From positions 1 through 30,678 of the IMG/VR virus record IMGVR_UViG_3300046724_000158: 30,678 nt of DNA. One strand, given 5' to 3'. This DNA comes from a virus. The number at the start of each line of letters is the position of its first letter. Positions within the stretch are counted from its first letter, which is position 1. The notes under the pieces were generated by a model. It searched no databases and had not been told where the DNA came from. It saw only the letters and a program-made list of their open reading frames with translations. This document shows positions 6,017 to 30,365 of the stretch, piece by piece. Position numbers and translations under genes: made by a program.

Positions 6017-6586
6017 ATGCCATTCGTTCAGGGTTTTCTGCGTATCCGCAGGGGCGGTCACCCGGATCAGGGTCTGCCTGGCGGTGAGGGTCCGGTTGAT
6101 CCGGATTATGGCATCGATGAGGGCGCCGGCATCGATAACAGCCTGCCGGGGCTGCCGCCTTATCCCGACCAGGGTCTTCCGAGACCGCCCGCCGGTGTAT
6201 GGCCGCCGCTCACGCCATCACACCCAATCCAGCCCGCGCCGCCGGGCACGCCGCCCGGGACCATCTGGCCCCCGGTGTGGCCTGTCGATCCGGGCTACGG
6301 GCGGCCGATCGGCGGCCACCCGGATCAAGGTCTGCCGCCGACAGGCGGCCACCCGGATCAGGGACTTCCCGGTGCCCCGGCGCACCCGGATCAGGGTCTG
6401 CCAGACGCACCACCCACCGTCGACAATACACTGCCGGGTGGACCAGTGAGACCTGACCAGGGCCTGCCCAAGCCGCAGGTTTATTACGTTGTCTGCGGGA
6501 TACCTGGCGTCGGCTGGCGGTATATCGCCGTCGATCCGACATTGCGGCCAAGCCATCCGATTGCGCCGTATCCACAGCCGAAGTGA
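6017..6586 (+). CDS. PDQGLP-repeat protein (189 aa)
   Basis: The ATG at 6017 has an AGGAG site at 6005-6009. The hallmark is a degenerate repeat: PDQGLP at residues 16-21, 50-55, 102-107, 112-117, 124-129 and 146-151, plus the variants IDNSLPG (39-45) and VDNTLPG (135-141). Between them lie Pro-rich segments. The C-terminal 35 residues (VYYVVCGIPGVGWRYIAVDP) look like a small folded domain. I recall PDQGLP/PDNSLP repeats from other proteobacterial phage proteins of unknown function. Lying between portal and scaffold suggests a head-associated protein. No enzymatic motif is seen. Confidence 0.8.
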   Translation: MPFVQGFLRIRRGGHPDQGLPGGEGPVDPDYGIDEGAGIDNSLPGLPPYPDQGLPRPPAGVWPPLTPSHPIQPAPPGTPPGTIWPPVWPVDPGYGRPIGGHPDQGLPPTGGHPDQGLPGAPAHPDQGLPDAPPTVDNTLPGGPVRPDQGLPKPQVYYVVCGIPGVGWRYIAVDPTLRPSHPIAPYPQPK

Positions 6587-6792
6587 CCAACGGCGGCGGC
6601 AACGGTCATGGCGGGATGCTGGCCTCGGTCAGTGAGAAACTCGTCAAGGCGTTGCCGCCCGCCATGTTGCTGCTCGTCGTGTTTAACGTGCTGACGTTGG
6701 GGGCGATGCTTTACGTGGTGCAGCACAACATGACGGCGCGAAACGAGATGATCCAGCAGATCGTCAAGTCGTGCCTGCGTCCGCAGCCATAG
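6583..6792 (+). CDS. Single-helix membrane protein (69 aa)
   Basis: The GTG at 6583 overlaps the upstream stop (GTGA). The product has a short Gly-rich head, an amphipathic segment (SVSEKLVKALP), one strong membrane helix (AMLLLVVFNVLTLGAMLYVV, about residues 27-46) and a short polar tail with MIQQIVKSCLRP. The one-helix topology with short soluble ends fits a small holin or an inner-membrane accessory protein. No lysin gene adjoins it, so a lysis role is only a possibility. It is the last gene before a hairpin-rich spacer. Confidence 0.7.
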   Translation: MTNGGGNGHGGMLASVSEKLVKALPPAMLLLVVFNVLTLGAMLYVVQHNMTARNEMIQQIVKSCLRPQP

Positions 6793-6806
6793 TTTCTTCG
6801 GGGGAA

Positions 6807-6838
6807 GGCGCCGCCAAGGGGTGACCCTTGACGGCACC
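6807..6838 (-). terminator. 14-bp hairpin downstream of the micro-ORF
   Basis: Arms 6807-6820 and 6825-6838 enclose a 4-nt loop. On the minus-strand transcript every position pairs, two of them as G-U wobbles. On the plus-strand transcript the same two positions become C-A mismatches. This asymmetry suggests the structure is maintained in leftward RNA, directly after the stop of the minus-strand micro-ORF. The following U-run is weak, so termination is plausible but not certain. Confidence 0.5.
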
Positions 6839-6842
6839 CGCC

Positions 6843-6917
6843 CTACCGCTGGATGATCTTGATCTTGATGCTGATCAAGATCACTATCAGCGGCAGGAAC
6901 TTCGCGATCTTGACCAT
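6843..6917 (-). CDS. Minus-strand hydrophobic micro-protein (24 aa)
   Basis: This ORF is too short for standard gene finding. The minus-strand ATG (6917) is preceded by a near-ideal GGAGGAG ribosome site (plus 6925-6931) at 7-nt spacing. The peptide starts MVKIAKFLPLIVILISIKIK and ends IIQR: a basic start, a 12-residue hydrophobic core, then alternating Ile/Lys, as in small membrane peptides or type I toxins. It lies opposite to all surrounding genes and between two strong hairpins, like an independent cassette (moron). The 40-codon plus-strand ORF over the same bases lacks a ribosome site. Expression and function are inferred. Confidence 0.5.
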   Translation of the reverse strand: MVKIAKFLPLIVILISIKIKIIQR

Positions 6918-6933
6918 CGCTAGGCTCCTCCGA

Positions 6934-6965
6934 AACGCCGGCCAGGCTCATTTCTGGCCGGCGTT
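6934..6965. terminator. Perfect 12-bp hairpin, probable terminator
   Basis: The arm AACGCCGGCCAG (6934-6945) is exactly complementary to CTGGCCGGCGTT (6954-6965), with an 8-nt loop. On the plus strand a mixed GTCGTTAT follows. As a perfect palindrome it would fold on either strand. It likely terminates or attenuates rightward transcription after 6792, and on the minus strand it sits 2 nt before the micro-ORF ribosome site. Confidence 0.6.
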
Positions 6966-7102
6966 GTCGTTATAGCGGGGTTTTCTGTAGTCCTGGCAAC
7001 CAGGCTGGGTGTCGTGTCAGTGTCTTGAGGACAAACGCTGGACACAAACACAACACAGGGGCATAACCCTTTGCTGATCCAGCGAGATCGGCAAGCCCCT
7101 GG

Positions 7103-8242
7103 ATGTCAGAGACCACTTCGATCCCTTCGGACGCCGCTACCCCTTCAGACGCGCCCTCGTCCAGCGTCGTCGATACCCCGAGCGCGGCCAGCACACCGGC
7201 GGCGCCCGCCGACAGTTCGACGCCCTCGTCAGGCACAGACAGCACAGCGCCCTCGTCAGGCGACAGCCGCCAGTCAGACCGTGATGGACTGCTTGCCGCA
7301 GTCCGCAAGGTCGTGGAGACCAAGCCCGAGCCAGGCGCCACCCCCTCGCAGACCGACGCGGGTGATCCTGCTCAGGACCAGACCTCCCGGGACCAGGCAG
7401 CGGCTACGGGAAAGCCGGGAGAAGCAACTCCTGGTGCCACCGAACCGTCCAAACCCGATCCGACCGAAGCCGATCCGACCGAAGCCGAACTCAAGAAGCT
7501 TCGTCCGGAGACGCGTCGCCGGTTCGAGCGTCTGCTATCGCAGCGTAATGAAGCCCGTCAGAACCTGGATGCTTTGCAGCCGGAGATCGCACAACACCGG
7601 CAGCTACAGGGGTATCTACAGCAGCACCAGTTGGCGCCGGATGACGTCAACATGCTGCTGGGTGTCGGGGCATCGCTGCGACGTGGCGACTACAAGGCTT
7701 TTCTCGACGGCGTGACGCCCTACGTCATGGTCGCTCAGGAAGCCCTTGGCCTGCGTGTCAGCCCGGATCTGCAAAAACAGGTCGACGAAGGGCTGATCGA
7801 CGATGCGACGGCGCGGGAACTCACCCGCACGCGGCATCGTGCCGTGCAGGCGGAAGCCAAACTGCAGGACGTCAACAAGACGGTTACGGCTGACCGACAG
7901 ATCCAGCAGGTGGAGAAAGTCCGCTCTGCGGTGGATGTGTGGGAAGAAGGCATCCGGCGACGCGATCCTGACTACGCCCACATGCAGGGTGCTGTGCGTC
8001 GCTATGCCCAGGGTCTGTTGCAAGAGCGCGGTTCGCCGCGCTCAGAGCAAGAGGCGGTGGCACTGGTGCAGGCGGCCTATGACGAGGTGAAAGCCACGTT
8101 CGCCCAGGCGCGTCCCGCGCCACGGCCGACGCGGCCCGCTCCGTCCAGCATCCATGTCGCAACCGGCACGTCGATGCCCGAGCCGCGCACGATGAAGGAC
8201 GCAGTCCTTGCGGCGCTGGCAAATGCGCGGCGTGCCTCCTGA
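7103..8242 (+). CDS. Capsid scaffolding protein
   Basis: The product guides capsid assembly and is expelled on maturation. Residues 1-130 are acidic, Ser/Thr/Pro/Asp-rich and disordered, including a tandem DPTEA duplication. Residues 130-330 are charged, Gln/Glu/Arg-rich and helical (coiled-coil-like), with LKKLRPETRRRFERLLSQRN and the LLQERGSPRSEQEAVALVQAAYDEVKA segment. A short basic C-terminus (MKDAVLAALANARRAS) resembles the coat-binding tail of scaffolds. No enzymatic motif is present. The position directly before the major capsid gene, 14 nt away, and the 379-residue length fit a podovirus scaffold. The ribosome site is weak; the start is the first ATG after the leader. Confidence 0.85.
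   Translation: MSETTSIPSDAATPSDAPSSSVVDTPSAASTPAAPADSSTPSSGTDSTAPSSGDSRQSDRDGLLAAVRKVVETKPEPGATPSQTDAGDPAQDQTSRDQAAATGKPGEATPGATEPSKPDPTEADPTEAELKKLRPETRRRFERLLSQRNEARQNLDALQPEIAQHRQLQGYLQQHQLAPDDVNMLLGVGASLRRGDYKAFLDGVTPYVMVAQEALGLRVSPDLQKQVDEGLIDDATARELTRTRHRAVQAEAKLQDVNKTVTADRQIQQVEKVRSAVDVWEEGIRRRDPDYAHMQGAVRRYAQGLLQERGSPRSEQEAVALVQAAYDEVKATFAQARPAPRPTRPAPSSIHVATGTSMPEPRTMKDAVLAALANARRAS
7457..7486 (+). repeat. Exact 15-nt tandem duplication in scaffold gene
   Basis: GATCCGACCGAAGCC occurs twice in direct succession (7457-7471, 7472-7486), adding DPTEA twice to the disordered scaffold N-terminus. Identity at the nucleotide level indicates a recent slippage event. Confidence 0.85.
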
Positions 8243-18628: not shown

Positions 18629-19147
18629 ATGGCGTTCCAGTCCCTCGCTGATCTGGTCAAACACTTCGAAAGCGGCGGCAACTACACCGCGGTGAACCCG
18701 TCCTCGGGCGCCGCGGGCGCCTACCAGTTCGTGCCCTCGACCTGGCGCCAGTATGGCTCGCAGCTGGGCATCGACACCTCGGCCTACCCCACCGCCGCGG
18801 TGGCGCCCCCGGAGGTGCAGGATGCGGTATTCAAGCAGGCGGTGGCCAAGCGGGGCCTCGGTGACTGGACCTGTCCGGGATGTAATCCTGCGCTGTCCAG
18901 CTACATCGCGGCCAACCCGGACGACGCCAAGCTGGCGGCGTTCGGGCCACCCCCTGCGGCGTCACCTGCGGCCCCGGCCCCAGCGGCTGCACCAGCGCCG
19001 CAACAGGCCCAGGGCACCGATCCGATGCTGCTGGCCTCGCTGATGAATGCGGCCGGCGGTGGCGGTGGTCTCTCGGCGGCGGTGACCCGCGCCATGCAGC
19101 CGATGCAGGACTACAACCAGCGTTTCTTCGGGACCGGCAATGCCTGA
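18629..19147 (+). CDS. Virion lysozyme-like (transglycosylase) protein
   Basis: The ATG is 4 nt after the preceding stop. Residues 1-95 form a small lysozyme-fold domain: LVKHFESGGNYTAVNPSSGAAGAYQFVPSTWRQY, with the candidate catalytic glutamate E14 in FESGG and the GAYQF signature found in transglycosylase/Rpf-like domains, followed by AQ-type helices, two cysteines (DWTCPGCNPA) and YIAAN. Residues 105-130 are an Ala/Pro linker, then a Gly-rich helical tail. The protein likely opens peptidoglycan locally during DNA ejection rather than lysing the cell, since it lies among internal virion genes. In T7 the equivalent activity is fused in gp16; here it is separate and overlaps the giant gene by 8 nt. 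Confidence 0.8.
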   Translation: MAFQSLADLVKHFESGGNYTAVNPSSGAAGAYQFVPSTWRQYGSQLGIDTSAYPTAAVAPPEVQDAVFKQAVAKRGLGDWTCPGCNPALSSYIAANPDDAKLAAFGPPPAASPAAPAPAAAPAPQQAQGTDPMLLASLMNAAGGGGGLSAAVTRAMQPMQDYNQRFFGTGNA

Positions 19148-22100
19148 CGGCAGCAACCTCTCCAGCATTCTGGGCGCGCTGCCACAGACTTATAGCACGC
19201 CGGAGGAAAGCCTGGCGGCGGCCCGACCCTCGCCTGCGGCACCTCCGGCGGCACCCTCGCTGGACGCCCTGCCGCAAACCTACAGCACGCCAGAGGAAAG
19301 CCTGGCGGCGCCGCCTGCGCCCACACCTACGGCGACACTCGCGCAACCTGCCGCGGTCACGTCCCTGGACGCCCTGCCGCAGACCTACAGCACGCCGGAG
19401 GAAAGCCTGGCCGCGGGGCAAGCTCCCGCGCCATCAGCGGCGGCACCCGCACAGCCTGGCGAGGCACAGCCGCCACAGGAAACCGGGTTCTTCAGCGGCT
19501 TGATCTCGGGCGTCGGCGCGTCCGGCCGAGAGGCGGCACAGCTCGCCACGGGGAACGCCTTCACCACCGATCCGAACGCCCAGCCGGAACCGACCCGCGG
19601 GTGGTTCAACGAGCTGGGCTACGGCATCGGGCACTCGGTTCCCGTGATTGGCGGTGGTCTCGCCGGGGGTGCGGCCGGCGGTGCCGTGGGTGGTCCCGTG
19701 GGCGCGACCATAGGCGCCGCGCTGGGCGTCGGCGGGACCAGCCTGCTGCAGGACCTGGTGCCGACCTACCAGTCCGCGGTGCAGGGCGGCATGAGCCACG
19801 ACGAGGCGGTGGATTATTCCGTCAAGCATGCCCTGGCGACCGGCGCGATCGGTGCCGCCACGGCGCCCCTGTTCGAGCTGGCGCCCTTTAAGAGCGCGAT
19901 CGGCAAGATCCTATTCCAGTCACTTGCAACGCAACCCGCCGTGGGTGCGGCCGGACGCGTCGGCGTGCCGCTGGTGATGGGCGAGCCATTGCCCTCTGCC
20001 GAAGACCTGGTCCGCGGGGCGGGCCAGGATATCGCCACCGGCGCCGCCTTTGGTGTGGGTCATCAGGTGGGTGGGCGCGTCGTCGAAGCCATCAGGCCCC
20101 GTCCAGGCCCAGTCGGCGAAGCGCCTCCGGTCAGTGAACCACCACCCGGTCCTGCAGTTGTCCCGCCAGCGCCAGTGCCTGACGTATCAACGCCGGCGGC
20201 AATACCCCGTGATACTGCTCCAGCCACTGAGTCAGTGCCGGGGCCAGCGCCCGAAAGAACGACTGAGCCAGTTCCGGTGCCACCTCCGGCGGAGGTTCCG
20301 GTAGCCCAGGCTGCGCCAGCCACGCCTGCATCTGAAACACCAGTGCCGTCAGAAACGGTTCCAACCCCGCCGGTCCAGGCTCCGCCAGCTCGAACTGAAA
20401 ACGAAACTCCATCATCGCCTGACCCTGCTAAACTGGATGCCATCAACGAGCATATCGCTGCGGGGAAATCGCTTGCTTATACGACCCAGGGCGACGGCAC
20501 GATAACTGTCGGTCCGAGCTTGGATACGGAAACTCATGTGCCGGTCACCCTTACCGCCGGCGAGCAGCGGGCTTTTCGTAACGCTGATCTCGACGCCGAA
20601 AGCACGGACCCGCAAGAACGAGCGGCGGGTAAAGCTCAAGTTCAGGAGATTTTGAAAACTGCGGTCCAGCGCGTTACGCTGCCGCCGGATGACGGACGTA
20701 GCATTCCCGCAGGACCCGAACCAACAACTGGCGTGGGCGAGGCAGGTGCTGCGCGACTTCCCGCCGAACAGCCAGGCGGTGTCCGCCCCGGCGATACGGC
20801 GGTGGGCGCTCCAGATACTCAGGCAGCACCGCCGACAGACCAAGGGCAAACTGGTCAAACTCCACCACCCTTCGAAACTGGTCCCACCAGCGGCGTAGCG
20901 CCCGGGGTATTTGGCCCACCAAAAGAAGCTCAGGTTCCAACTCTGGCGCCAGCGCCAGGACCAGTGCCGGAGACTGGTCCTGGGACCAGCCAGACACCGC
21001 AGACGCGTGGGGACCAATACCGTGCCGCAGTGGCCGAACTCGACGCGCGCAACGCGCCTGACAGCGACTACCGCTCGATCTTATCAACCGGCGCCAAAAA
21101 CCCGCTCCGTAAAGGCGAAACCTGGCGTGGTCGGGTGCTGGACTTCGCGCGCCAGGCCGATGCAGAGGGTGTTGGTCCTGAGACCACTGGTCCCACTCCG
21201 AACCGGTTCGCCGACCTCGACCGGCAGATCGCCGCGCGTGATGCGCTCGCGGCTCAGGCTCCTGGGTTGGGTGGCGCCAACGAAGCCCGGGTCGTGCGGC
21301 TCGATAAACAAATCGCCGCGCACGAGCAGGCTCTTCAGGCCAGCGATCCGCAGCTCACCAAGCTCCGGGCCACGCGTGACGCGCTGACGGCGCAGCCCGT
21401 TGGATTGGGCGGGACCAACGAAGCCCGTGTGGCGCAGCTCGACAAACAGATCGCCGCGCGTGAACGAACCCTCCAGGCCAAGGTCCGTCAGACCCCGGGT
21501 GGTCCCCGCGTCGGCGGGCGCAAACAACCTTTCACGGGACCGCCCGAGGTCGGCGCGTCAAAGGGCCTGAATGATTACAAATTCAACAACGGCACCAGTG
21601 TCTGGCAATCAGTGCTGGATGAGGCCGGGCATAGCGCCGACCTGGCGATCAACAAGCCGGTCGCCTGGCAGGTCAAGGTGCTGACCGACCACATGAAGAA
21701 TAAGTTTGGGTTCCGCGGCGTGGAGGTGGTGGGGCGACAGGGAAAGGACGCCACCCCGGTGGACCAGAAGGTCGCCCGGGATGCGATGCTGGACATGACG
21801 CGCTCAATCACCGATGGCATGGCGACACTGGGTGAGCCATACGCGGCTGCCAGCAACAACGGCCAGGTCAAGCTGGTCCTCGAACCGCGGGGTTCAACAG
21901 GCTATCACGGCGTTTACAGCACCGCCGGCGAGATCCGCATCGTGGGCGGCGCCAATAGTTTCGGCCATGAGTGGACCCACGCGATCGATCACACCGTCGC
22001 TGAGCGGTTGACCGGCAATCCAGCCCAGATGAATAAGCTGCTCTCACAGTATGCCCGCGATGGCGTGCTGAACCCGCGCGACGGCGTGCAGGCAGCCATG

Positions 22101-25100
22101 GCTAAGCTGATCAACATACACTTCTATAAACGCGAGGCGCAGGCAGCACGGCAGCTGGCACTGGAAATCACGGCGGCGAAGACTGACCGGCTGGGACAGC
22201 CCACCCAGGGCGCTTTAGAGGCTCAACGGCAGCTGGATCTGCTGGAACGCGGCGGCTCACTGCTGCACATCGAACCGAGTGCGTTTCGTGAAGCAAGCAT
22301 GGACTTTCATCCGCCGAAGAGAGGCTACTACGGCAGCATCATGGAGCTGCTTGGGCGCAGCCATGAAGCTTACCTTGCGCGTGAGATGCAGAACGCTGGG
22401 GTCGATCCGCGTGGCTTCGTGATGCCGGACGAAGCCTACATCAACGAGACCGATCGCGCGCTGAAGATGCTCTACCCCAAAGCCGACGATCGTTCAGACA
22501 TCTTCGCGGGATGGGCCGAGTTCCATCGGCAGATGCGCAACGAGATGGTGCTGAGCCAGGGCAAGCCGCCGGGGGCGTTCTCCGATCTTGGTATCTCGGA
22601 CCCGTCGCGTCTCTCGGTGACGGCGCCCATGTCCGGCGGCACGGCCCTGGCCGGCTGGCTTAGGGAAGAGGCCAACCGTTACGCCAACTTCACCAAGAAC
22701 CTGGCGGGCGTCGGATTGTATGATAAGTCCCGGCCAGATCCTGGCGACAAAACCCTGACACGACGCATCGCCGACACCTTCCGCGCTGTCGGGTTCGCAT
22801 CGCACAGCATGGCTGAAACCATCATCAAGCGCGCACCGGAGGGTGCCAGACCCTATCTCAGGGAAATCATGGACCGCTGGACGCCGGCCCCGGGCGAGGG
22901 TCGCTACACCGGCGCCAGCCTGGAGGAGGCCCGCCAGAACCGCGAGACCGAGTGGCTGCGCCGCTACGGCAACATCCTGAATAAGCACGGGCTTGACCCG
23001 CGCACGATGACCAACGAGGAAAACGACATGATCCGGCATGTCATGACCACCGGGGAAGACCGTTTTCCGACCGATCCGCTTGACCCGAACTCACCGACCA
23101 AACCGATCCCGGCGAACCTGATCAGAGTGGCGGGCAAGGACGGCCTGCGGCCCCTGTTGGACGAGGGCTGGGCTACCAGCGATGCCGCGGGCCTGGACAC
23201 TGGCTACGCCAAGAGCGGATATTTTCCCCGCCTGTGGGACATCGCGAAAATCTTCGCCAACCCGGCACGGTTCCGCGAAGCTGCGGGCAAGCTGCACGCG
23301 CTGATATTCGACCAAGAGGTGGGCGCGCCTGGGAAAGACCCGACCGCGTTGCTGGAAAAATGGACCACGCTGTCAGGCACCGATCGCGACAACGCGCCGG
23401 CGGAACTGGCCACCCAAATGGAGCAGCTGGCCAAGAGCATGCGTCGGCAGCGGCAGATCGAGGAGCAGCTGAACACGCCGTTCTCATCGGGAAACCCAGT
23501 CACGCTGCGTGCCGAGCTGGCCGCGTTAAAAACCGAAATTCAGCAACAGGCCGAGGCCGCGCATGCGTTGCTGCGGGACCACATCGCGGAGACCGCGTCC
23601 GGCAACTGGTTCGCCCGGTTGATGCGGGCAGGGCACCATGATTTCGACACCGTGGGACCATCGGGCAAATACCTCAACGCCCGCGTGCTGCCGCCGGAGA
23701 CCGACACTATTATGCGGGAGTTCCTGCGCACCAACATCAACGATGCGATCCCCAATTACCTGATCGCGGTGGCGCGGCGCACCGCCGACGCCGAACGCTT
23801 CGGCGCGCACGGCGAGGACCTGGACCGGTTGCTGGATGCCGCGGCACGCGTGCCCGGCATGGACGGCAATGACCTGATCCAGTTCGAGAACCTGACCAAC
23901 AACGTCAGGGGCCGGATCAGCTATCGGAACCTGGGACCCCTGCAGAAGATCCACAACGCGATACAGACCTACGGTGCGGTCGTGACCATGCCGCGTGCCC
24001 TGTGGGCGTCGCTGGCCGAGCCGATGAACGGGGGGCTGGCCACCGGTGAAATGCGCGTCCCCTTCAAGATCTTCGCCAGCCAGTTCGGCCAGCTGATGCG
24101 CACGGCCTCGTCGCGTGAACGCAGCGAGCTGGCCGATTTCCTCAACGTCACCACGTCACCGATGCACGACACCGTCATGCTGTCCCGCATGAGCGCGGAC
24201 TATTCCGACAGCCCGCTGCTGAACCGGCTGATGGGCTGGTATTACCGGGTGACCGGACTGACCCAGCTGACCAACTCGCAACGCATTGGCGCCACCGCGG
24301 GAGGTGACTGGTTCCTGAACAAGCTGGCGCAGCACTATCAGGACGAGGGGACCGACACAGCCGCGGTGAACCGCAGGGACAACGCCACGCGCTGGTTCCG
24401 CGAGCTGGGCCTGAATGATCCGATCCACGCCGATTTCGCCAAGTGGATGACCGACAAGAACGGTGCGCTGCCCAGTCCGCACCAGCTGCTGACCGACGCC
24501 ACGGGCATGGCCGGGGCCTATGGCCTGGCGATGCGCCGACTGGTCAACCGCATCATCCAGCAGCCGACCGCGGCGGATCGGCCGATGATGGCGCGGGTGC
24601 CGATCATCGGGCTGGCGTATCAGCTGATGCACTTCAACTACCAGTTCGCCCGCAACGTGCTGAACCCGGCGATCGGGCAAGTGGAACACGCCTACAGCCG
24701 CGCCAGGGCGCAGGGCAGCGGACGCTTGGGCGCCACGGCGGTGGGGGCCGGCGCCGCGGTGCATGCCGCCTCGATGGCCGGGGCCATGGTCGGCGTCGGC
24801 CTGATGACCACCATGGTGCGGCAGGCGCTGTTCGCCCCCGACCAGTGGAAGAAGCACGAGGAGGACGGCGACCTGTGGGACTACCTGCTGGGGCTGGCGA
24901 TGCAGCGGTCCGGCCTCAACGGCACGCTCGACCCGATCATCCAGGTGGCCACCAACCTGCGCTATAACGCGGACCTGAGTTCCCTGCTGGATGGCGCGTC
25001 GATGAACTGGATCGCGAAGAATGCGCAGGACGTGATCCAGCCGTTAGTAAGCGCCAACGACAGCCCTAACACGAACACAAGATATTTCAATGCCGCGCGG

Positions 25101-25604
25101 GGTGCGTTCAACCTGATCGGTGTGCCGGCCGCGGCGATCGGACTGACCACGTTGGGCGCGGTGGGTGGACCGATCTCGCGCGCCGTCGCCGGGGCGGCTC
25201 TGCAGTATGGCACCTCACCAGCGTCGGCGTCGGGGTTCGCCGGGATGGTGGCCGGCGAGAAGGGCGCCCAGCTGCCAAAGGAGACCAAGCCTGGCGAGTT
25301 ACCTGAACTACCAGGACCAGCGAGCTTGCCGAGCCTGCCCAGCCTTAGCAGCGAGCAGGATCAATCCGCGCAGGACCAGGGCGCCGGAGGTGGCTTGCTG
25401 CCATGGGGCCTGATGGACGATGTCGCGGTGCCGGCCTGGCGCGTGGCTGCGCCGATGCTGTCGCGCCTGCCAGGTCCGGTGAAGGCGGGTGCCCTAGGGC
25501 TGGGGGCGCTGACCGGGGCCAAGAGTTTCCTCGACACCACGGCACCCTGGCGCGGCGAAGACGCACGCCCGCCGAAGGCGGCCGAACAGGCGGCGCAGCC
25601 ATGA
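19140..25604 (+). CDS. Giant ejection protein with HEWTH metalloprotease-like domain (2154 aa)
   Basis: The ATG overlaps the lysozyme-like gene. Order of parts: three LPQTYSTPEESLAA repeats (residues 14-92); a Gly-rich hydrophobic segment (about 165-210, GGGLAGGAAGGAVGGPVGATIG); a disordered Pro/Glu linker (310-600); a coiled coil with a 35-residue duplication (700-780); a domain with FGHEWTHAIDH, where HEWTH (943-947) is an HExxH zinc-metalloprotease motif, followed by a FRE/SHEAYLAREM segment that recalls the polyvalent-protein-associated metalloprotease domains (LPD1 type); then about 900 helical residues with a Gly/Ala hydrophobic patch (AVGAGAAVHAASMAGAMVGVGLM). It is comparable in position and size class to T7 gp16-type internal proteins. 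It is probably injected with DNA. The protease function is inferred from the motif only. Confidence 0.8.
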   Translation: MPDGSNLSSILGALPQTYSTPEESLAAARPSPAAPPAAPSLDALPQTYSTPEESLAAPPAPTPTATLAQPAAVTSLDALPQTYSTPEESLAAGQAPAPSAAAPAQPGEAQPPQETGFFSGLISGVGASGREAAQLATGNAFTTDPNAQPEPTRGWFNELGYGIGHSVPVIGGGLAGGAAGGAVGGPVGATIGAALGVGGTSLLQDLVPTYQSAVQGGMSHDEAVDYSVKHALATGAIGAATAPLFELAPFKSAIGKILFQSLATQPAVGAAGRVGVPLVMGEPLPSAEDLVRGAGQDIATGAAFGVGHQVGGRVVEAIRPRPGPVGEAPPVSEPPPGPAVVPPAPVPDVSTPAAIPRDTAPATESVPGPAPERTTEPVPVPPPAEVPVAQAAPATPASETPVPSETVPTPPVQAPPARTENETPSSPDPAKLDAINEHIAAGKSLAYTTQGDGTITVGPSLDTETHVPVTLTAGEQRAFRNADLDAESTDPQERAAGKAQVQEILKTAVQRVTLPPDDGRSIPAGPEPTTGVGEAGAARLPAEQPGGVRPGDTAVGAPDTQAAPPTDQGQTGQTPPPFETGPTSGVAPGVFGPPKEAQVPTLAPAPGPVPETGPGTSQTPQTRGDQYRAAVAELDARNAPDSDYRSILSTGAKNPLRKGETWRGRVLDFARQADAEGVGPETTGPTPNRFADLDRQIAARDALAAQAPGLGGANEARVVRLDKQIAAHEQALQASDPQLTKLRATRDALTAQPVGLGGTNEARVAQLDKQIAARERTLQAKVRQTPGGPRVGGRKQPFTGPPEVGASKGLNDYKFNNGTSVWQSVLDEAGHSADLAINKPVAWQVKVLTDHMKNKFGFRGVEVVGRQGKDATPVDQKVARDAMLDMTRSITDGMATLGEPYAAASNNGQVKLVLEPRGSTGYHGVYSTAGEIRIVGGANSFGHEWTHAIDHTVAERLTGNPAQMNKLLSQYARDGVLNPRDGVQAAMAKLINIHFYKREAQAARQLALEITAAKTDRLGQPTQGALEAQRQLDLLERGGSLLHIEPSAFREASMDFHPPKRGYYGSIMELLGRSHEAYLAREMQNAGVDPRGFVMPDEAYINETDRALKMLYPKADDRSDIFAGWAEFHRQMRNEMVLSQGKPPGAFSDLGISDPSRLSVTAPMSGGTALAGWLREEANRYANFTKNLAGVGLYDKSRPDPGDKTLTRRIADTFRAVGFASHSMAETIIKRAPEGARPYLREIMDRWTPAPGEGRYTGASLEEARQNRETEWLRRYGNILNKHGLDPRTMTNEENDMIRHVMTTGEDRFPTDPLDPNSPTKPIPANLIRVAGKDGLRPLLDEGWATSDAAGLDTGYAKSGYFPRLWDIAKIFANPARFREAAGKLHALIFDQEVGAPGKDPTALLEKWTTLSGTDRDNAPAELATQMEQLAKSMRRQRQIEEQLNTPFSSGNPVTLRAELAALKTEIQQQAEAAHALLRDHIAETASGNWFARLMRAGHHDFDTVGPSGKYLNARVLPPETDTIMREFLRTNINDAIPNYLIAVARRTADAERFGAHGEDLDRLLDAAARVPGMDGNDLIQFENLTNNVRGRISYRNLGPLQKIHNAIQTYGAVVTMPRALWASLAEPMNGGLATGEMRVPFKIFASQFGQLMRTASSRERSELADFLNVTTSPMHDTVMLSRMSADYSDSPLLNRLMGWYYRVTGLTQLTNSQRIGATAGGDWFLNKLAQHYQDEGTDTAAVNRRDNATRWFRELGLNDPIHADFAKWMTDKNGALPSPHQLLTDATGMAGAYGLAMRRLVNRIIQQPTAADRPMMARVPIIGLAYQLMHFNYQFARNVLNPAIGQVEHAYSRARAQGSGRLGATAVGAGAAVHAASMAGAMVGVGLMTTMVRQALFAPDQWKKHEEDGDLWDYLLGLAMQRSGLNGTLDPIIQVATNLRYNADLSSLLDGASMNWIAKNAQDVIQPLVSANDSPNTNTRYFNAARGAFNLIGVPAAAIGLTTLGAVGGPISRAVAGAALQYGTSPASASGFAGMVAGEKGAQLPKETKPGELPELPGPASLPSLPSLSSEQDQSAQDQGAGGGLLPWGLMDDVAVPAWRVAAPMLSRLPGPVKAGALGLGALTGAKSFLDTTAPWRGEDARPPKAAEQAAQP
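19179..19415 (+). repeat. Three copies of a 42-nt coding repeat in the giant gene
   Basis: Copies at 19179-19220, 19269-19310 and 19374-19415 each encode LPQTYSTPEESLAA and differ by only a few synonymous bases. They are separated by Ala/Pro-rich linkers of different length. Strict protein identity with synonymous drift suggests selection on the peptide, such as a binding epitope displayed three times. Confidence 0.9.
21237..21479 (+). repeat. Imperfect 105-nt duplication in the giant gene
   Basis: Copies 21237-21341 and 21375-21479 encode 35-residue units with the pattern RDALxAQxxGLGGxNEARVxxLDKQIAAxExxLQA. An 11-codon spacer separates them. Both lie in the predicted coiled-coil part before the protease-like domain. 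Confidence 0.85.
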
Positions 25605-26162: not shown

Positions 26163-28070
26163 TCAGCCCTTCTGGTAACGCCGCACGACAAAGCCCGCCG
26201 CATTGATCGGCAGACCGGGCGCCCAACCTGGGGTCCGGCGCATCACCTTGAGCATCAAATCCAGGGTCGGCTCGGCGTCGGTCTCGGGGACTTCCGCGAT
26301 CAGCTCGTCGTGGATGGTGGCGATCAGCGGTTGCTGCACCAGGGTCAACATCGCCTCGACCATCACGTCGCGGGCCACCGCTTGCGTAACATTTTCCGCG
26401 ACCTTGCCCGGCCACGATCTCAGTCTGAGCCAGTTGCCACCCAGCGAGCCGAGATAGGTGAACTCGTCGAAGCCCTTGTCGTTCTGCTCGATCCGCGGGT
26501 GCCTGTAGACCAGATGCCGGCCGCTCGGCAGGCGGATCAGCAGCCGGCGAGGACGATGGATGAACGTCAGGAAACCTAACCGTTCCGAGGCGCCAGGACC
26601 GGCCCGCAACACCCGCATCAAGGTGCGGTGCCCCTCCCACCACAACGTCACGATGTGAGCGTTCAGGGCACGCCACGCCATGACCGCGTCCATCGCCTCG
26701 ATCTCGCTAAGGACCACGTTGTAAGAGAGCGCGGTCTGCCGGAACCGCTCGGCACCCATACCGAACCCCGCGGCCAAAACTAACACTTTGCCCAGCTGTC
26801 TGTTAGTGGAGCCGATGGCGTTGGCGGTGGCCGTGTAGATGTCCTTACCGGCAGCGAACACCGTCAGGGCGTCCTGCTGGCCAGCCAGCCAGGCCAGCAC
26901 GCGGGCCTCGATCTGCGACAGGTCGGCGACCACCAGCCGGTGCAAGGGCGCCGCCATGATGGTGGAGCGCAGGCAGCTGGCGACCACGCCCAGGGCGCTG
27001 TCCTCGAACAGCATGGCGAGGTCGTCGGGGGTGGCGCCTGAGCGGATCGCGCGGATCGCCGCGGGCACGTCCCTGATCGATCCCCGGAACAGGTTCTGCG
27101 GCTGGAACCGCCGACCGGCCCAGCGTCCAGTGCGGCCGGCGCCGTAGAATTGAAAAGCACCCTTTACGCGGCCGTCCAGGGACCGTGCGGCGGCGATGGC
27201 GGCCAATTTGGCGGTTGACGCCCGGGAGGCGTCCAGACGGGCCTGGAGGACCTTCCTGGGGCCGTCCGGCAGGCCAGGGTCCGCGAGCCAAGCTTTCACC
27301 GTGTCACGCTTAAGGTCGGGCATGTCGACGCCCTGGAAGAACAGCCAGGTGCGCAGCTGCGCTACCTGGTTCAGTGAGGTGACCTGGCCGTTGGTGAGCC
27401 GCACTACGTCACGGCCCAACTGGTCCCGCGCCCGCTCGGTCAGCGTCGCCAGGTCCTGCACGAGCGAGTAGTCGATGCCGAGACCACGCTGGTTGATGTG
27501 GTGGTCCAGCTCGAATACCTGGCGCTCGCGCGGGGAGAGTTCAGGCAGGCGGCTGTCCAGCTCACGCTCGGCGAGGACGTCTTGAGCGCAGTATTCGCAG
27601 AGCTTCTGGAACCGACCGGGGTCGGTCTCGTGCCACCAGGTGGTCGGGTTCAAGGACCGTGGCCGGGCGAACCGCAGCATCAAGTCTCGCGCGGTTGGAT
27701 CTTTGCGGAACCGCAGACCTATGGCTCGGCCGCCCACGTCCAGGCTCGCCGGATAGCCGGCGACCAAACTTCGGGCCATGGTGCAGGACCACTGGGGCAG
27801 CGGAACTACAGGCCAGCCATGAGGGACCAGTTTGGCGAAATACATTGCGTGTTCAAACATATAATTATGCGCAACGACGATGGCCCCGGATTGAACCGCA
27901 TTTACGAAACAAGCAGGCGGCGGCCCGGTTAGCCAGGTCTCGACCGGTCCCGCATCAATCGTGAAGCAAGCCACGGTGATCCGCGTGGACAGATGCTCGG
28001 CATAAGCATGGGCGCCGGTGCGGCGTAAATCGGCGAGACTTGTAGTTTCAAGATCAAGAATTATGCGCAC
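26163..28070 (-). CDS. Family A DNA polymerase with 3'-5' exonuclease
   Basis: This is the replicative phage polymerase. The start must be the GTG at 28070 because a stop lies two codons upstream; no ribosome site is seen. Exonuclease domain: Exo I LDLETT with D6/E8, Exo II AHNYMFEHAMY (67-77), Exo III YCAQDV with D164. Polymerase domain: FYGAGRTGRWAGRRFQPQNL (308-327) of the template/primer-binding region, motif A VVADLSQIEAR (380-390, D383), motif B RQLGKVLVLAAGFGMG (424-439) and motif C IHDEL (586-590, D588/E589). All catalytic residues are present. The 635 aa length fits phage-type polymerases lacking the 5' nuclease. It is the last gene of the leftward block. Confidence 0.95.
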   Translation of the reverse strand: MRIILDLETTSLADLRRTGAHAYAEHLSTRITVACFTIDAGPVETWLTGPPPACFVNAVQSGAIVVAHNYMFEHAMYFAKLVPHGWPVVPLPQWSCTMARSLVAGYPASLDVGGRAIGLRFRKDPTARDLMLRFARPRSLNPTTWWHETDPGRFQKLCEYCAQDVLAERELDSRLPELSPRERQVFELDHHINQRGLGIDYSLVQDLATLTERARDQLGRDVVRLTNGQVTSLNQVAQLRTWLFFQGVDMPDLKRDTVKAWLADPGLPDGPRKVLQARLDASRASTAKLAAIAAARSLDGRVKGAFQFYGAGRTGRWAGRRFQPQNLFRGSIRDVPAAIRAIRSGATPDDLAMLFEDSALGVVASCLRSTIMAAPLHRLVVADLSQIEARVLAWLAGQQDALTVFAAGKDIYTATANAIGSTNRQLGKVLVLAAGFGMGAERFRQTALSYNVVLSEIEAMDAVMAWRALNAHIVTLWWEGHRTLMRVLRAGPGASERLGFLTFIHRPRRLLIRLPSGRHLVYRHPRIEQNDKGFDEFTYLGSLGGNWLRLRSWPGKVAENVTQAVARDVMVEAMLTLVQQPLIATIHDELIAEVPETDAEPTLDLMLKVMRRTPGWAPGLPINAAGFVVRRYQKG

Positions 28071-28080
28071 GGATCAGAAC

Positions 28081-28140
28081 GCTGCGTTGAGAGGCGACGC
28101 GTTGCGCAGCGTAACGTAGCGGGGCCGCGCGGGGCGCGAG
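28081..28140. repeat. Pentanucleotide-phased tract 1a (12 units)
   Basis: Reading in 5-nt steps from 28081, 11 of 12 units start with G and 9 of 12 end in GC (for example gctgc, gaggc, gacgc, gttgc). Consensus on the plus strand is G-N-N-G-C. It lies directly upstream of the polymerase start on the transcribed strand, and is separated from tract 1b by the dyad operators. Confidence 0.75.
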
Positions 28141-28142
28141 AC

Positions 28143-28167
28143 GGACAAAGTGTCGGACATTTTGTCC
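28143..28167. promoter_or_regulatory. Two tandem 12-bp operator-like dyads upstream of polymerase
   Basis: GGACAAAGTGTC (28143-28154) is followed immediately by GGACATTTTGTC (28155-28166) and C. Each has the form GGACA-N3-TGTC, and the second extends to a perfect GGACA/TGTCC dyad. The outer arms also pair (GGACAAA with TTTGTCC), so the whole could form one hairpin in RNA. This AT-richer island cleanly interrupts the pentanucleotide tract. It looks like a paired binding site for a dimeric regulator controlling the polymerase gene. Confidence 0.5.
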
Positions 28168-28190
28168 GGTGAACCAAACTAGAACACGTT

Positions 28191-28330
28191 GCGGTGTGCT
28201 GCGGCGCAGAACGTCGTGACGCGGTGCAGCACTGCAGAGCGCGGCAAGGCGTTGCGCGGCGCAGCAGAGCGAAGCGCCGCGAAGCGCGACGAGGCAGAGC
28301 GTTGTGTGGCGTGGCGCGGCGCAGCGGAGG
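28191..28330. repeat. Pentanucleotide-phased tract 1b (28 units)
   Basis: Reading in 5-nt steps from 28191, all 28 units begin with a purine and 19 end in GC (for example gcagc, gaagc, gccgc, gaggc). The tract ends 2 nt before the stop of the next leftward gene at 28333, so it fills the intergenic space. The only ORF through it translates the repeat as Arg/Ala/Pro-rich sequence and is not a gene. Confidence 0.8.
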
Positions 28331-28332
28331 TT

Positions 28333-28839
28333 TCACTTGCCAGGACGAGGCAGCAACTTGAGCTGATCTGCCACGGCTAACATTACCTGCCCCACCGGTA
28401 ACGGCTTCACATCGTCAGGCACGCTGCGGACAACTCGCTCGGTGGTGAGGTGCTGGATCATGCCCAGCACAGACAGCTCACGGGTGGCAGCGAGCAGCGC
28501 ATCATTGGGCATGGCGTTGGCGGTTTCCAACGCACGGCCCATGGTTGTGCTGGCGCGGCGGGCGGTGCTGCGGATGCGCTTGCGGGCGTGACCACCGAAG
28601 GACGCAGCCTGTTCGGCCGGCAGACGCTTGTAGCCAGTGCGGTAAACACACTGAAACAGGGCACCTGCTTCGCGGTTCGCGAGTTTGATGGCGCGCATGA
28701 TGAGATACCGCCGCTGCAAGATGTCCACACCGATGGTCGCGGACAGCGCGGTATATGTGGCAGTCTCACCGATCGTCGTGGCCAGGAGACGATCGGTCAG
28801 CCGGCGGATGTCCGGCGAGGATTTACGAAGCGTGAACAC
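28333..28839 (-). CDS. Small wHTH-like protein of the replication block (168 aa)
   Basis: I chose the GTG at 28839: a GAAAGGA ribosome site lies about 9 nt upstream, and the longer reading runs into the pentanucleotide tract. The region TATYTALSATIGVDILQRRYLIMRAIKLANRE looks like a helix-turn-helix, followed by a beta hairpin-like LFQCVYRTGYKRL, suggesting a winged-helix DNA-binding fold. A basic segment (HARKRIRSTARRASTTMGRAL) comes next, then a helical C-terminus (ATRELSVLGMIQHL). The family is not recognised by name. Its place between polymerase and the RAMP-like gene suggests a DNA-binding regulator or replication accessory protein, possibly acting at the dyads upstream of the polymerase. 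Confidence 0.75.
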   Translation of the reverse strand: MFTLRKSSPDIRRLTDRLLATTIGETATYTALSATIGVDILQRRYLIMRAIKLANREAGALFQCVYRTGYKRLPAEQAASFGGHARKRIRSTARRASTTMGRALETANAMPNDALLAATRELSVLGMIQHLTTERVVRSVPDDVKPLPVGQVMLAVADQLKLLPRPGK

Positions 28840-28861
28840 GGTGTGACGTCCTTTCGTTGGA

Positions 28862-28991
28862 ATAGCGTTGCGTTGCGCGGTGCAGCGCAGCATCGCGCGG
28901 CGGTGCGGGACAGTGCGTTGTGTTGAGTAGCGGGGCGTTGCACCGCAATGCAACGCAAGGCGGAGCGTGGCGAGGCGCGGCGCCGTGATGT
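28862..28991. repeat. Pentanucleotide-phased tract 2 (26 units)
   Basis: In 5-nt steps from 28862 all 26 units start with a purine (19 G, 7 A) and 20 end in GC (gttgc, gcagc, aatgc, aacgc, ggagc). This is the cleanest of the tracts. It begins just after the ribosome-site region of the 28839 gene and runs exactly to the stop of the next gene at 28991. Confidence 0.85.
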
Positions 28992-29587
28992 CAAGCAGCG
29001 AGCAGTTCGCGATTGTTCTGCCACACGAGCTTGTCCAGTGCGAACCGTCCGTTGATACCGCCTTTTTCGGGGCGGAACCGACCGACGCCGATATAGAGAC
29101 CCGCCAACTCCAGCATCTCGCGGAACACCGGCTCGGTGATGATCGGGTCCAGTATGTGAATGTCAAAGGTCGTGGACCACTCCGGCATGATTGGAAAGCG
29201 ACGCGTCACCCGCTTGCCGGAGCCTCGCACACCATCTGCGTTGGCAGAAATCGTGACCGAGACCACTGTTGCGGGGTCAATGTTGAGGCTCGGGTCTTCC
29301 AGCAGGAAAATCCCGGCAGTAAACTTGGCCGTCCAGGTCGCCTTACCTTGTCCTGGGATCTGACGCTTGGAGTATTTGGCGGCAGCCGCCAGGGCCTGTT
29401 GAAAACCATGTGCCGGTAACACGACAGTCAGTTTGCCGTCACGCACGGCGGTGTTGAGTTTGGACCGCCAGGTGCGAGCGTCATAGGCGTCAGGGCTTTC
29501 GCTTTCCAGGCGTGGTTCGTCATGCTGGTGCGACTGCGACAGGGGTGAGATGCCACGGAGTGTGACTGTTGCGATGGAGGATTTCAT
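28991..29587 (-). CDS. Replication-block protein with RAMP-like Gly-rich motif (198 aa)
   Basis: The ATG at 29587 has an AGGA site about 8 nt upstream; the longer reading crosses tract 3 and is rejected. The N-terminus IATVTLRGISPLSQSHQHDE and the DAYDARTWRSKL segment are followed by FQQALAAAAKYSKRQI, FTAGIFLLEDPSL and, near the C-terminus, ELAGLYIGVGRFRPEKGGINGRF. The order 'TLxGxSPLSxS ... VFxxxLExAGxxxGxGRFRPxxGGxxGRF' is one I recall from uncharacterised phage proteins. The glycine-rich GxGRFRPxxGG loop is reminiscent of the G-loop of RAMP/Cas7-like RNA-binding proteins. That similarity is by eye and unproven. It lies beside the SSB and polymerase genes, so a nucleic-acid-binding role is reasonable. 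Confidence 0.75.
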   Translation of the reverse strand: MKSSIATVTLRGISPLSQSHQHDEPRLESESPDAYDARTWRSKLNTAVRDGKLTVVLPAHGFQQALAAAAKYSKRQIPGQGKATWTAKFTAGIFLLEDPSLNIDPATVVSVTISANADGVRGSGKRVTRRFPIMPEWSTTFDIHILDPIITEPVFREMLELAGLYIGVGRFRPEKGGINGRFALDKLVWQNNRELLAA

Positions 29588-29606
29588 GGTCAGGTTCCTG
29601 TTTGCG

Positions 29607-29772
29607 GTTGCGTTACGATGATAGCGCGTTGCGTTGCAGGGAGTCGCGGAGCGCCGCACTACGGAGCGCCACGAAGAGTAGCGGGAAGAGGCGGGGCGCT
29701 GCGGAACAGTGCGATGCGTTGCGGGGAGGAGCGATACGCCGCGAGACGGGGTGATGCGTAGCGATGCGTCGG
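29607..29772. repeat. Pentanucleotide-phased tract 3 (about 33 units, one phase slip)
   Basis: A short run from 29607 (gttgc, gttac, gatga) is followed by a 1-nt phase slip. From 29628, 29 units run in perfect 5-nt phase: all 29 start with a purine and 18 end in GC (gtcgc, ggagc, gccgc, gatgc, gtagc). It fills the spacer between the RAMP-like gene start and the SSB stop at 29784. It is strongly purine-rich on the plus strand. Confidence 0.8.
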
Positions 29773-29783
29773 CGCGACAGAAA

Positions 29784-30365
29784 TCAGAACGGTGGATCGT
29801 CATCGTCGACACCTGCCGACGCCATCGCGCCGGGGCCGCTATATTCATCAAAATCATCAGGCGCGGCCTTGCGACCATCGATCCGCTTGGTGTCGGTCCT
29901 ACAAATTTGCAGGTTGTTCAGGGCGAACGAGACACCTTTGTTACCAGCTTGATTATAAGTAAAAGGTGCCACCGTGGCGCGGGCCATCTGACCGGCCCAG
30001 ATGTCTTCCGGGACAGTGATCTCAACCCGCCGTGCATCCACCAGACCCGGACGTGATTTAGACCACGGACTAATGTATGTTCCGCCCGGAATGTCGTAGC
30101 CGGCGTAGGATTTCTCACTGCACTTGCGGAACGGCAAACGGATGCTCTGGATAAAGGCTTTGTCCCGGGACTTGCCTTGTCCCCACTCTTCATCGATCGC
30201 TTCCATCACCGCTGTGCGCAGATCGTTGTAGGCGGGATCACGCTGCGCGGTCTGATCGAACAGCAGCGACACCTGATACACCGGATCGCCGCCCGGGGCG
30301 CGGGGGCGCGGCGAGAACAGCACGGGAAAGCTCAAGATGCCGATGGGCGTGCGGATGGAACTCAT
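29784..30365 (-). CDS. Single-stranded DNA-binding protein (DUF2815 / gp2.5-like)
   Basis: This coats single-stranded DNA during replication. The ATG at 30365 has a GGGAGA site about 10 nt upstream and overlaps the stop of the preceding gene (ATGA). The body follows the DUF2815 pattern: SFPVLFSPRPRAPGGDPVYQVSLLFD, LRTAVMEAIDEEWGQG, RLPFRKCSEKSYAGYDIPGGTYI, PGLVDARRVEI, IWAGQMARATVAPFTYNQAGNKGVSFALNNLQICR and GRKAAPDDFDEY. The C-terminus DDDDPPF is an acidic tail with terminal aromatic residue, as in T7 gp2.5 and bacterial SSB, which use it to contact polymerase and helicase. The 193 aa length fits. Co-expression with the polymerase in the same operon supports the role. Confidence 0.88.
   Translation of the reverse strand: MSSIRTPIGILSFPVLFSPRPRAPGGDPVYQVSLLFDQTAQRDPAYNDLRTAVMEAIDEEWGQGKSRDKAFIQSIRLPFRKCSEKSYAGYDIPGGTYISPWSKSRPGLVDARRVEITVPEDIWAGQMARATVAPFTYNQAGNKGVSFALNNLQICRTDTKRIDGRKAAPDDFDEYSGPGAMASAGVDDDDPPF

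Follow-up and report, generated by a model that had tools for sequence, protein, structure and literature searches.

A VIPR cassette of YGC/NN arrays between the ssb and pol genes of a phage, with probable targets in sister phages

What are the pentanucleotide arrays that fill the spacers of a phage replication operon? The question is raised by the IMG/VR virus record IMGVR_UViG_3300046724_000158, whose 30,678 nt were analysed as a whole (hereafter the window). It is an incomplete phage record that includes a terminase, a portal, a major head protein, a polymerase, and a gp2.5-like single-stranded DNA-binding protein (SSB). Three spacers between its ssb and pol genes consist largely of degenerate 5-nt units, and the first-pass annotation of this DNA knew of no description of such arrays. 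A description does exist: the Viral Interference Programmable Repeat (VIPR) system was reported from Escherichia phage SUSP1 and a Pseudomonas fulva prophage in a bioRxiv preprint of April 2026 (PMC13142463). Its components are a RAMP protein encoded by the phage, a vap gene, for which six families have been published, and vrRNAs that consist of 9–16 GGY/NN repeats and a 3' tail. The NN bases, with one base skipped, mediate vrRNA binding to double-stranded DNA and so the repression of transcription, and the targets are competing phages (PMC13142463). The arrays of the window are a real, functional-looking feature of this just-described kind, and VIPR was thus recovered independently, from raw sequence. 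It is very probable that the window carries a VIPR cassette between ssb and pol and that two of its guides aim at polA and ssb of sister phages, the carrier's own copies being mismatched.

The arrays and the genes between them

The leftward operon runs in the order ssb, array C, vipr, array B, vap-like gene, array A, and pol. Identity at lag 5 was 0.49 in spacer A (z 6.9), 0.58 in spacer B (z 7.9), and 0.44 in spacer C (z 4.4), against 0.29 expected from dinucleotide-preserving shuffles, so that the 5-nt phasing proposed in the first-pass annotation holds in all three. Further identity peaks were found at lags 10, 15, and 20, with troughs at lags 4, 6, 9, 11, and 14, and the top-scoring segments across the whole 30.7-kb window were these three spacers. 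The earlier unit count was reproduced exactly (28 + 26 + 29 = 83), with a purine at the start of all 83 units and GC at the end of 57. In transcript register the unit reads Y-G-C-N-N; over the 83 units, the entropies of Y, G, and C were 0.84, 0.98, and 0.79 bits, and those of the two free positions were 1.92 and 1.97 bits, with 16 of 16 dinucleotides present. The tracts are non-coding, phased, and not microsatellites, as had been claimed, and the free variation of the middle bases is their key feature. They are also intergenic, but they do not reach the gene boundaries as had been thought, since the main tracts end before the ribosome-binding region of each downstream gene. Spacer A is composed of two arrays, A1 and A2, with a 15-nt hairpin between them. 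Rfam covariance models gave 0 matches in the window. A weak lag-5 signal at positions 7401–7580 lies in coding sequence and comes from the short repeat CCGATCCGACCGAAG; it is not an array.

The 198-aa product of the gene between spacers B and C was compared with known proteins by profile and by predicted fold. A profile of 82 homologues had a sole match among PDB sequences, namely 36pp, 'SUSP1 Vipr protein' (E 4.2e-40). The AlphaFold2 model (pLDDT 94.6) has a predicted Csm3/Cas7-like RAMP fold, and its best Foldseek matches were subunits of the Cas7 type from CRISPR complexes of types III and VII. The family has a conserved G-rich C-terminal loop, and Pfam and PADLOC returned nothing of weight for it. 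On this profile and fold evidence the 198-aa protein is identified as Vipr, which makes the spacer arrays the putative vrRNA guides of a VIPR system. We suggest the name Vipr for PHROG 4652. Weak tblastn matches (E 6e-5 to 8e-3) to OQ594955, AY772740, OP820472, and MW534375, all hypothetical proteins, point to further candidate Vipr proteins in Pseudomonas phage LESphi2, Listonella phage phiHSIC, and the Gordonia phages Ecliptus and ODay.

The neighbouring 169-aa protein was modelled with a winged-helix-like N-terminus (pLDDT 91.4). Foldseek gave weak matches only, several of them winged helix-turn-helix regulators, and about 60 loci have a homologue of the protein together with vipr. From this co-occurrence and the predicted fold we take the gene as probably vap and call it 'vap-like'; the same name is suggested, more tentatively, for PHROG 5926.

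In close relatives (pol 70–85% and SSB 68–95% identical), the arrays, vipr, and the vap-like gene are all absent, with one exception, and the ssb–pol slot holds other small genes or is empty. Absence of phased tracts from close relatives had been put forward as a refutation. The arrays are indeed absent there, but the whole vipr-vap cassette is missing as well, and the outcome points to an accessory module rather than an artefact. The exception, L011 (locus numbers are those of our collection; pol 72%), has a divergent vipr homologue between GGY-NN arrays at 4672–5689 in the same ssb–pol slot; cassettes of two dialects, YGC in the window and GGY in L011, therefore occupy one locus. The location of the tracts, in intergenic spacers upstream of genes, would also suit cis-acting operon elements such as structured leaders, 5-bp-phased DNA, or replication or processing sites. 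However, sister phages with the same operon do not have the tracts, and in unrelated phages the arrays accompany a vipr gene, not polymerase operons; we regard this explanation as extremely improbable. Of the functions listed in the first-pass annotation, the protein-coated array was near the truth, as the RNA would be coated by a RAMP protein, whereas an mRNA leader structure, helically phased DNA, and a replication element found no support.

Guides and their matches in sister phages

The tail motif YKCAACGCANCG occurs in four copies in the window, every one of them in an array and on the transcript strand. In C1 and A2, nine units (plus one unit) lie between the array start and this motif. 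Guides were decoded by the published VIPR rule, in which the NN bases are read with a 1-nt skip. Decoded in this way, A2 agreed at 18 of 18 bases with antisense polA of five relatives, at the conserved peptide GTFQYYGA, and C1 agreed at 17 of 18 with antisense ssb of these five. Both matches stop at exactly the ninth unit. The skipped base coincides with the codon wobble base, where the relatives vary synonymously, and the bases read by A2 and C1 are all unchanged among them. At the level of sequence, then, the cassette combines a Vipr protein, a vap-like neighbour, tandem YGC/NN repeats, and 9-unit guides with a shared tail, two of which decode to genes of cassette-free sister phages (Table 1).

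Could the two target matches be due to chance? Gapped patterns of 18 bases do match unrelated IMG/VR genes. Nevertheless, the exact A2 pattern had five matches in 2.9 million IMG/VR contigs, and each of the five was the polA gene of one of the closest relatives. Scores of this size came from the published skip rule only, as skips of 0, 2, 3, and 4 gave maxima of 14 and 15 on the two arrays, and none of 200 unit shuffles reached (17,17) for the two best arrays. In a blind test, 106 tail-defined YGC guides were compared with 5.0 Mb, leaving out L270–L275, which had been fetched by the C1 pattern. Skip-1 matches of at least 17/18 were those of C1 and A2 on the relatives and one from L151, which looks like chance and is at the level of the wrong skips (one match each for skips 0 and 2, none for skip 3). 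Chance is thus a very improbable source of both matches.

A different possibility is that the cassette is a VIPR cassette whose pol and ssb guides autoregulate the carrier's own replication genes, mismatches being tolerated, without any attack on sisters. Within the carrier's genome, A2 and C1 fit best at the homologous sites, with 16/18 in pol and 14/18 in ssb, the two genes that flank the cassette. On the other hand, a self-regulator should match self best, whereas here the sister match is perfect or nearly so and the self match is worse. We consider autoregulation unlikely.

Several points weigh against guides aimed at sister phages. Measurements behind the 1-nt-skip rule were made on GGY, not YGC, arrays, and the 9-unit and tail boundaries are based on four tails only. 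C1 has one mismatch to the sister ssb, and C1 alone is weak, because gapped 18-base patterns match unrelated viral genes by chance; the exact 18-nt C1 pattern gave such matches in IMG/VR. C2, B1, B2, and A1 had no target in the sequences searched. Expression, processing, and use of the arrays against sister phages are inferred from the SUSP1 work.

The individual searches with the remaining guides were as follows. C2 had 0 matches, with up to 2 mismatches allowed, in the four named alphaproteobacterial genomes that carry this Vipr clade (see below), and B1 had 0 matches in 299 genomes of the order of one of them, a Roseomonas metagenome-assembled genome (MAG). Arrays A1 and B gave nothing above chance on the full contigs of the relatives. 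The 3' block of array C matched only baseplate-like genes of unrelated phages in IMG/VR, which was judged to be chance, and an apparent match of this block to the G-loop of the L210 vipr was discarded, as the matched stretch runs on into the tail. When every array of every locus was used in a local target search ranked by total score, the outcome for long arrays was uninformative.

Table 1 Features of the cassette and its flanks in the window
Feature	Position	Strand	Details and basis
gp2.5-like ssDNA-binding protein gene (ssb), cassette flank	29784..30365	-	PHROG 112, E 1.1e-28
Own counterpart of C1 target, in ssb	30070..30095	+	14/18, four guide bases mismatched
vrRNA guide C1 (putative)	29729..29773	-	9 units GA AT TA AT CC CT GG AT TC; target ssb of sister phages, 17/18 match
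C1 tail	29711..29728	-	CTCCCCGCAACGCATCGC; tail motif
vrRNA guide C2 (putative)	29644..29688	-	CC TA TT GG TC AG GG TC GA; tail-defined
C2 tail	29626..29643	-	CTCCCTGCAACGCAACGC; tail motif
vipr, 198-aa RAMP protein	28991..29587	-	PHROG 4652; profile match to 36pp, predicted fold
vrRNA guide B1 (tentative)	28933..28977	-	CT CA TC CT GT AT GG AA CC; 9 units, then degenerate tail CGCTACTCAACACAACG
vrRNA guide B2 (putative)	28883..28927	-	AA AA AC CC AC CG GA TG TG; overlaps B1 tail; tail-defined
B2 tail	28865..28882	-	CACCGCGCAACGCAACGC; tail motif
vap-like gene, 169 aa, GTG start	28333..28842	-	Predicted winged-helix-type DNA-binding protein; vipr neighbourhood, predicted fold
Array A1	28187..28326	-	About 28 YGCNN units, no clear internal tail
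Perfect 6-bp hairpin between A1 and A2	28154..28168	-	CGGACA-AAA-TGTCCG; sequence read directly
vrRNA guide A2 (putative)	28097..28141	-	CG CC GC CC TA TA TG AA GT; target polA of sister phages, 18/18 match
A2 tail	28079..28096	-	CGCCTCTCAACGCAGCGT; tail motif
Family A DNA polymerase gene (pol), cassette flank	26163..28070	-	PHROG 17, E 2.6e-89; Pfam DNA_pol_A
Own counterpart of A2 target, in pol	27133..27158	+	16/18, two guide bases mismatched

Arrays, vipr, and repeat dialects in IMG/VR

Loci were collected from 2.9 million viral contigs by nine consecutive GGYNN or YGCNN units, and the counts below refer to the matches listed. An iterated profile search found the vipr family in 159 of the 232 loci that had been fetched by the array DNA pattern alone, and the inter-array genes of such loci often resemble the two cassette genes. 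Among the 64 loci with an array and without vipr, the array was at most 1.5 kb from the end of the fetched stretch in 41. Conversely, an array lay within 2.5 kb of 158 of 165 vipr genes. In control contigs totalling 317 kb, the array detector found none. A profile alignment for the locus searches, labelled A1, was too diverse and was dropped.

These loci also bear on whether the tracts are a functionless degenerate microsatellite expansion. A few pattern-fetched loci are indeed plain repeats (L154 and L188). In the window, however, the two free positions are nearly unconstrained while the other three are constrained, the motif units share the orientation of vipr in 152 of 162 loci, and guides decode to targets; we give such an expansion next to no probability.

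Read in the vipr sense, the repeats were GGY in 120 loci, YGC in 25, and GYA/GCA in 11, in a sample that is biased by collection with only the two patterns GGYNN and YGCNN. When mapped on a tree of 145 Vipr proteins built with FastTree, the dialects require 9 changes where shuffled ones require 28.5, so that dialect for the most part follows the Vipr protein lineage. A well-supported group of 16 rows in this tree, all of them YGC, includes the Vipr of the window. The named hosts of its clade are alphaproteobacterial genomes, namely the Roseomonas MAG (71%), Paracoccus, a Rhizorhabdus MAG, and Devosia, and these clade members have arrays and tails of the same kind as the window. A third dialect, GCA/NN, was seen in L150, L166, L198, L211, L219, and L223, often as many short guide-tail units; a T-rich tail follows each guide in L223, and L211 and L198 have a repeated tail sequence.

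Likeness to known systems and a proposed role

Like published VIPR, the window combines a Vipr RAMP protein and a vap neighbour with intergenic pentanucleotide arrays of three constrained and two free positions, at least nine repeats, and a 3' tail, and its apparent targets lie in competing phages and follow the 1-nt skip, which falls on the codon wobble base. In place of the GGY of the SUSP1 type it has YGC as its constrained triplet; the strict GGY/NN consensus is present in L011 and in most vipr loci. Of the seven VIPR types in the preprint, others are said to have 'a related consensus' (fig. S17; PMC13142463), and YGC may be among these. Its guides also differ from the published ones in having nine units with a short tail, in lying inside a replication operon, and in matching sister-phage homologues of the two flanking genes, not satellites or prophages. 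With the Class 1 CRISPR-Cas effectors, whose types III and VII have a Csm3/Cas7 backbone, the system shares a RAMP-fold backbone protein and an RNA filament with periodically interrupted base pairing. In contrast to them, the cassette has no repeat-spacer array, cas1, cas10, or cas5, its period is 5 nt and not 6 nt, and its guide information is noncontiguous. No long repeat unit was found in the window, and the neighbours of the arrays are only ssb, vipr, vap, and pol.

By analogy with SUSP1, the arrays would be transcribed with the operon and processed to vrRNAs, with CAACGCANCG as the tail near the presumed RNA ends. Vipr subunits may coat the vrRNA, one per 5-nt repeat, such that YGC is held in the protein and NN is presented. 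If a sister phage co-infects the cell, the complex could then attach to its double-stranded DNA in pol and ssb and block transcription of these genes, so that the carrier would gain a replication advantage, and the two to four guide mismatches would spare its own genes. We favour, with some reserve, a VIPR lineage with its own dialect (YGC/NN, co-inherited with the Vipr clade) that serves as an accessory weapon in the replication operon against essential replication genes of cassette-free sisters, the carrier having diverged at the guide-read bases; this would amount to an allele-based discrimination of self and non-self. What is new here is a member of the YGC/NN dialect, together with its probable natural targets in sister phages and the poorer fit of the two guides to self. 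The published noncontiguous code would thereby extend to a different repeat dialect, and both the purpose of VIPR and the self-avoidance of its carrier become directly testable with one guide and two 26-bp sites.

Some minor observations remain. Positions 19140–25604 of the window hold a 2154-aa reading frame with 0 PHROG matches. The ssb–pol slot is an accessory-gene hot spot, its content differing among L006–L010, L012, L013, and L019–L022, and a DNA-identical cassette region is present in two further contigs of the collection. In L151, positions 6301–6980 and 7451–7815 carry a long YGC array with several guides and the repeated tail GCAACGCAACGATTCATTTATGGCATTTC between them, which makes this locus good for defining guide boundaries.
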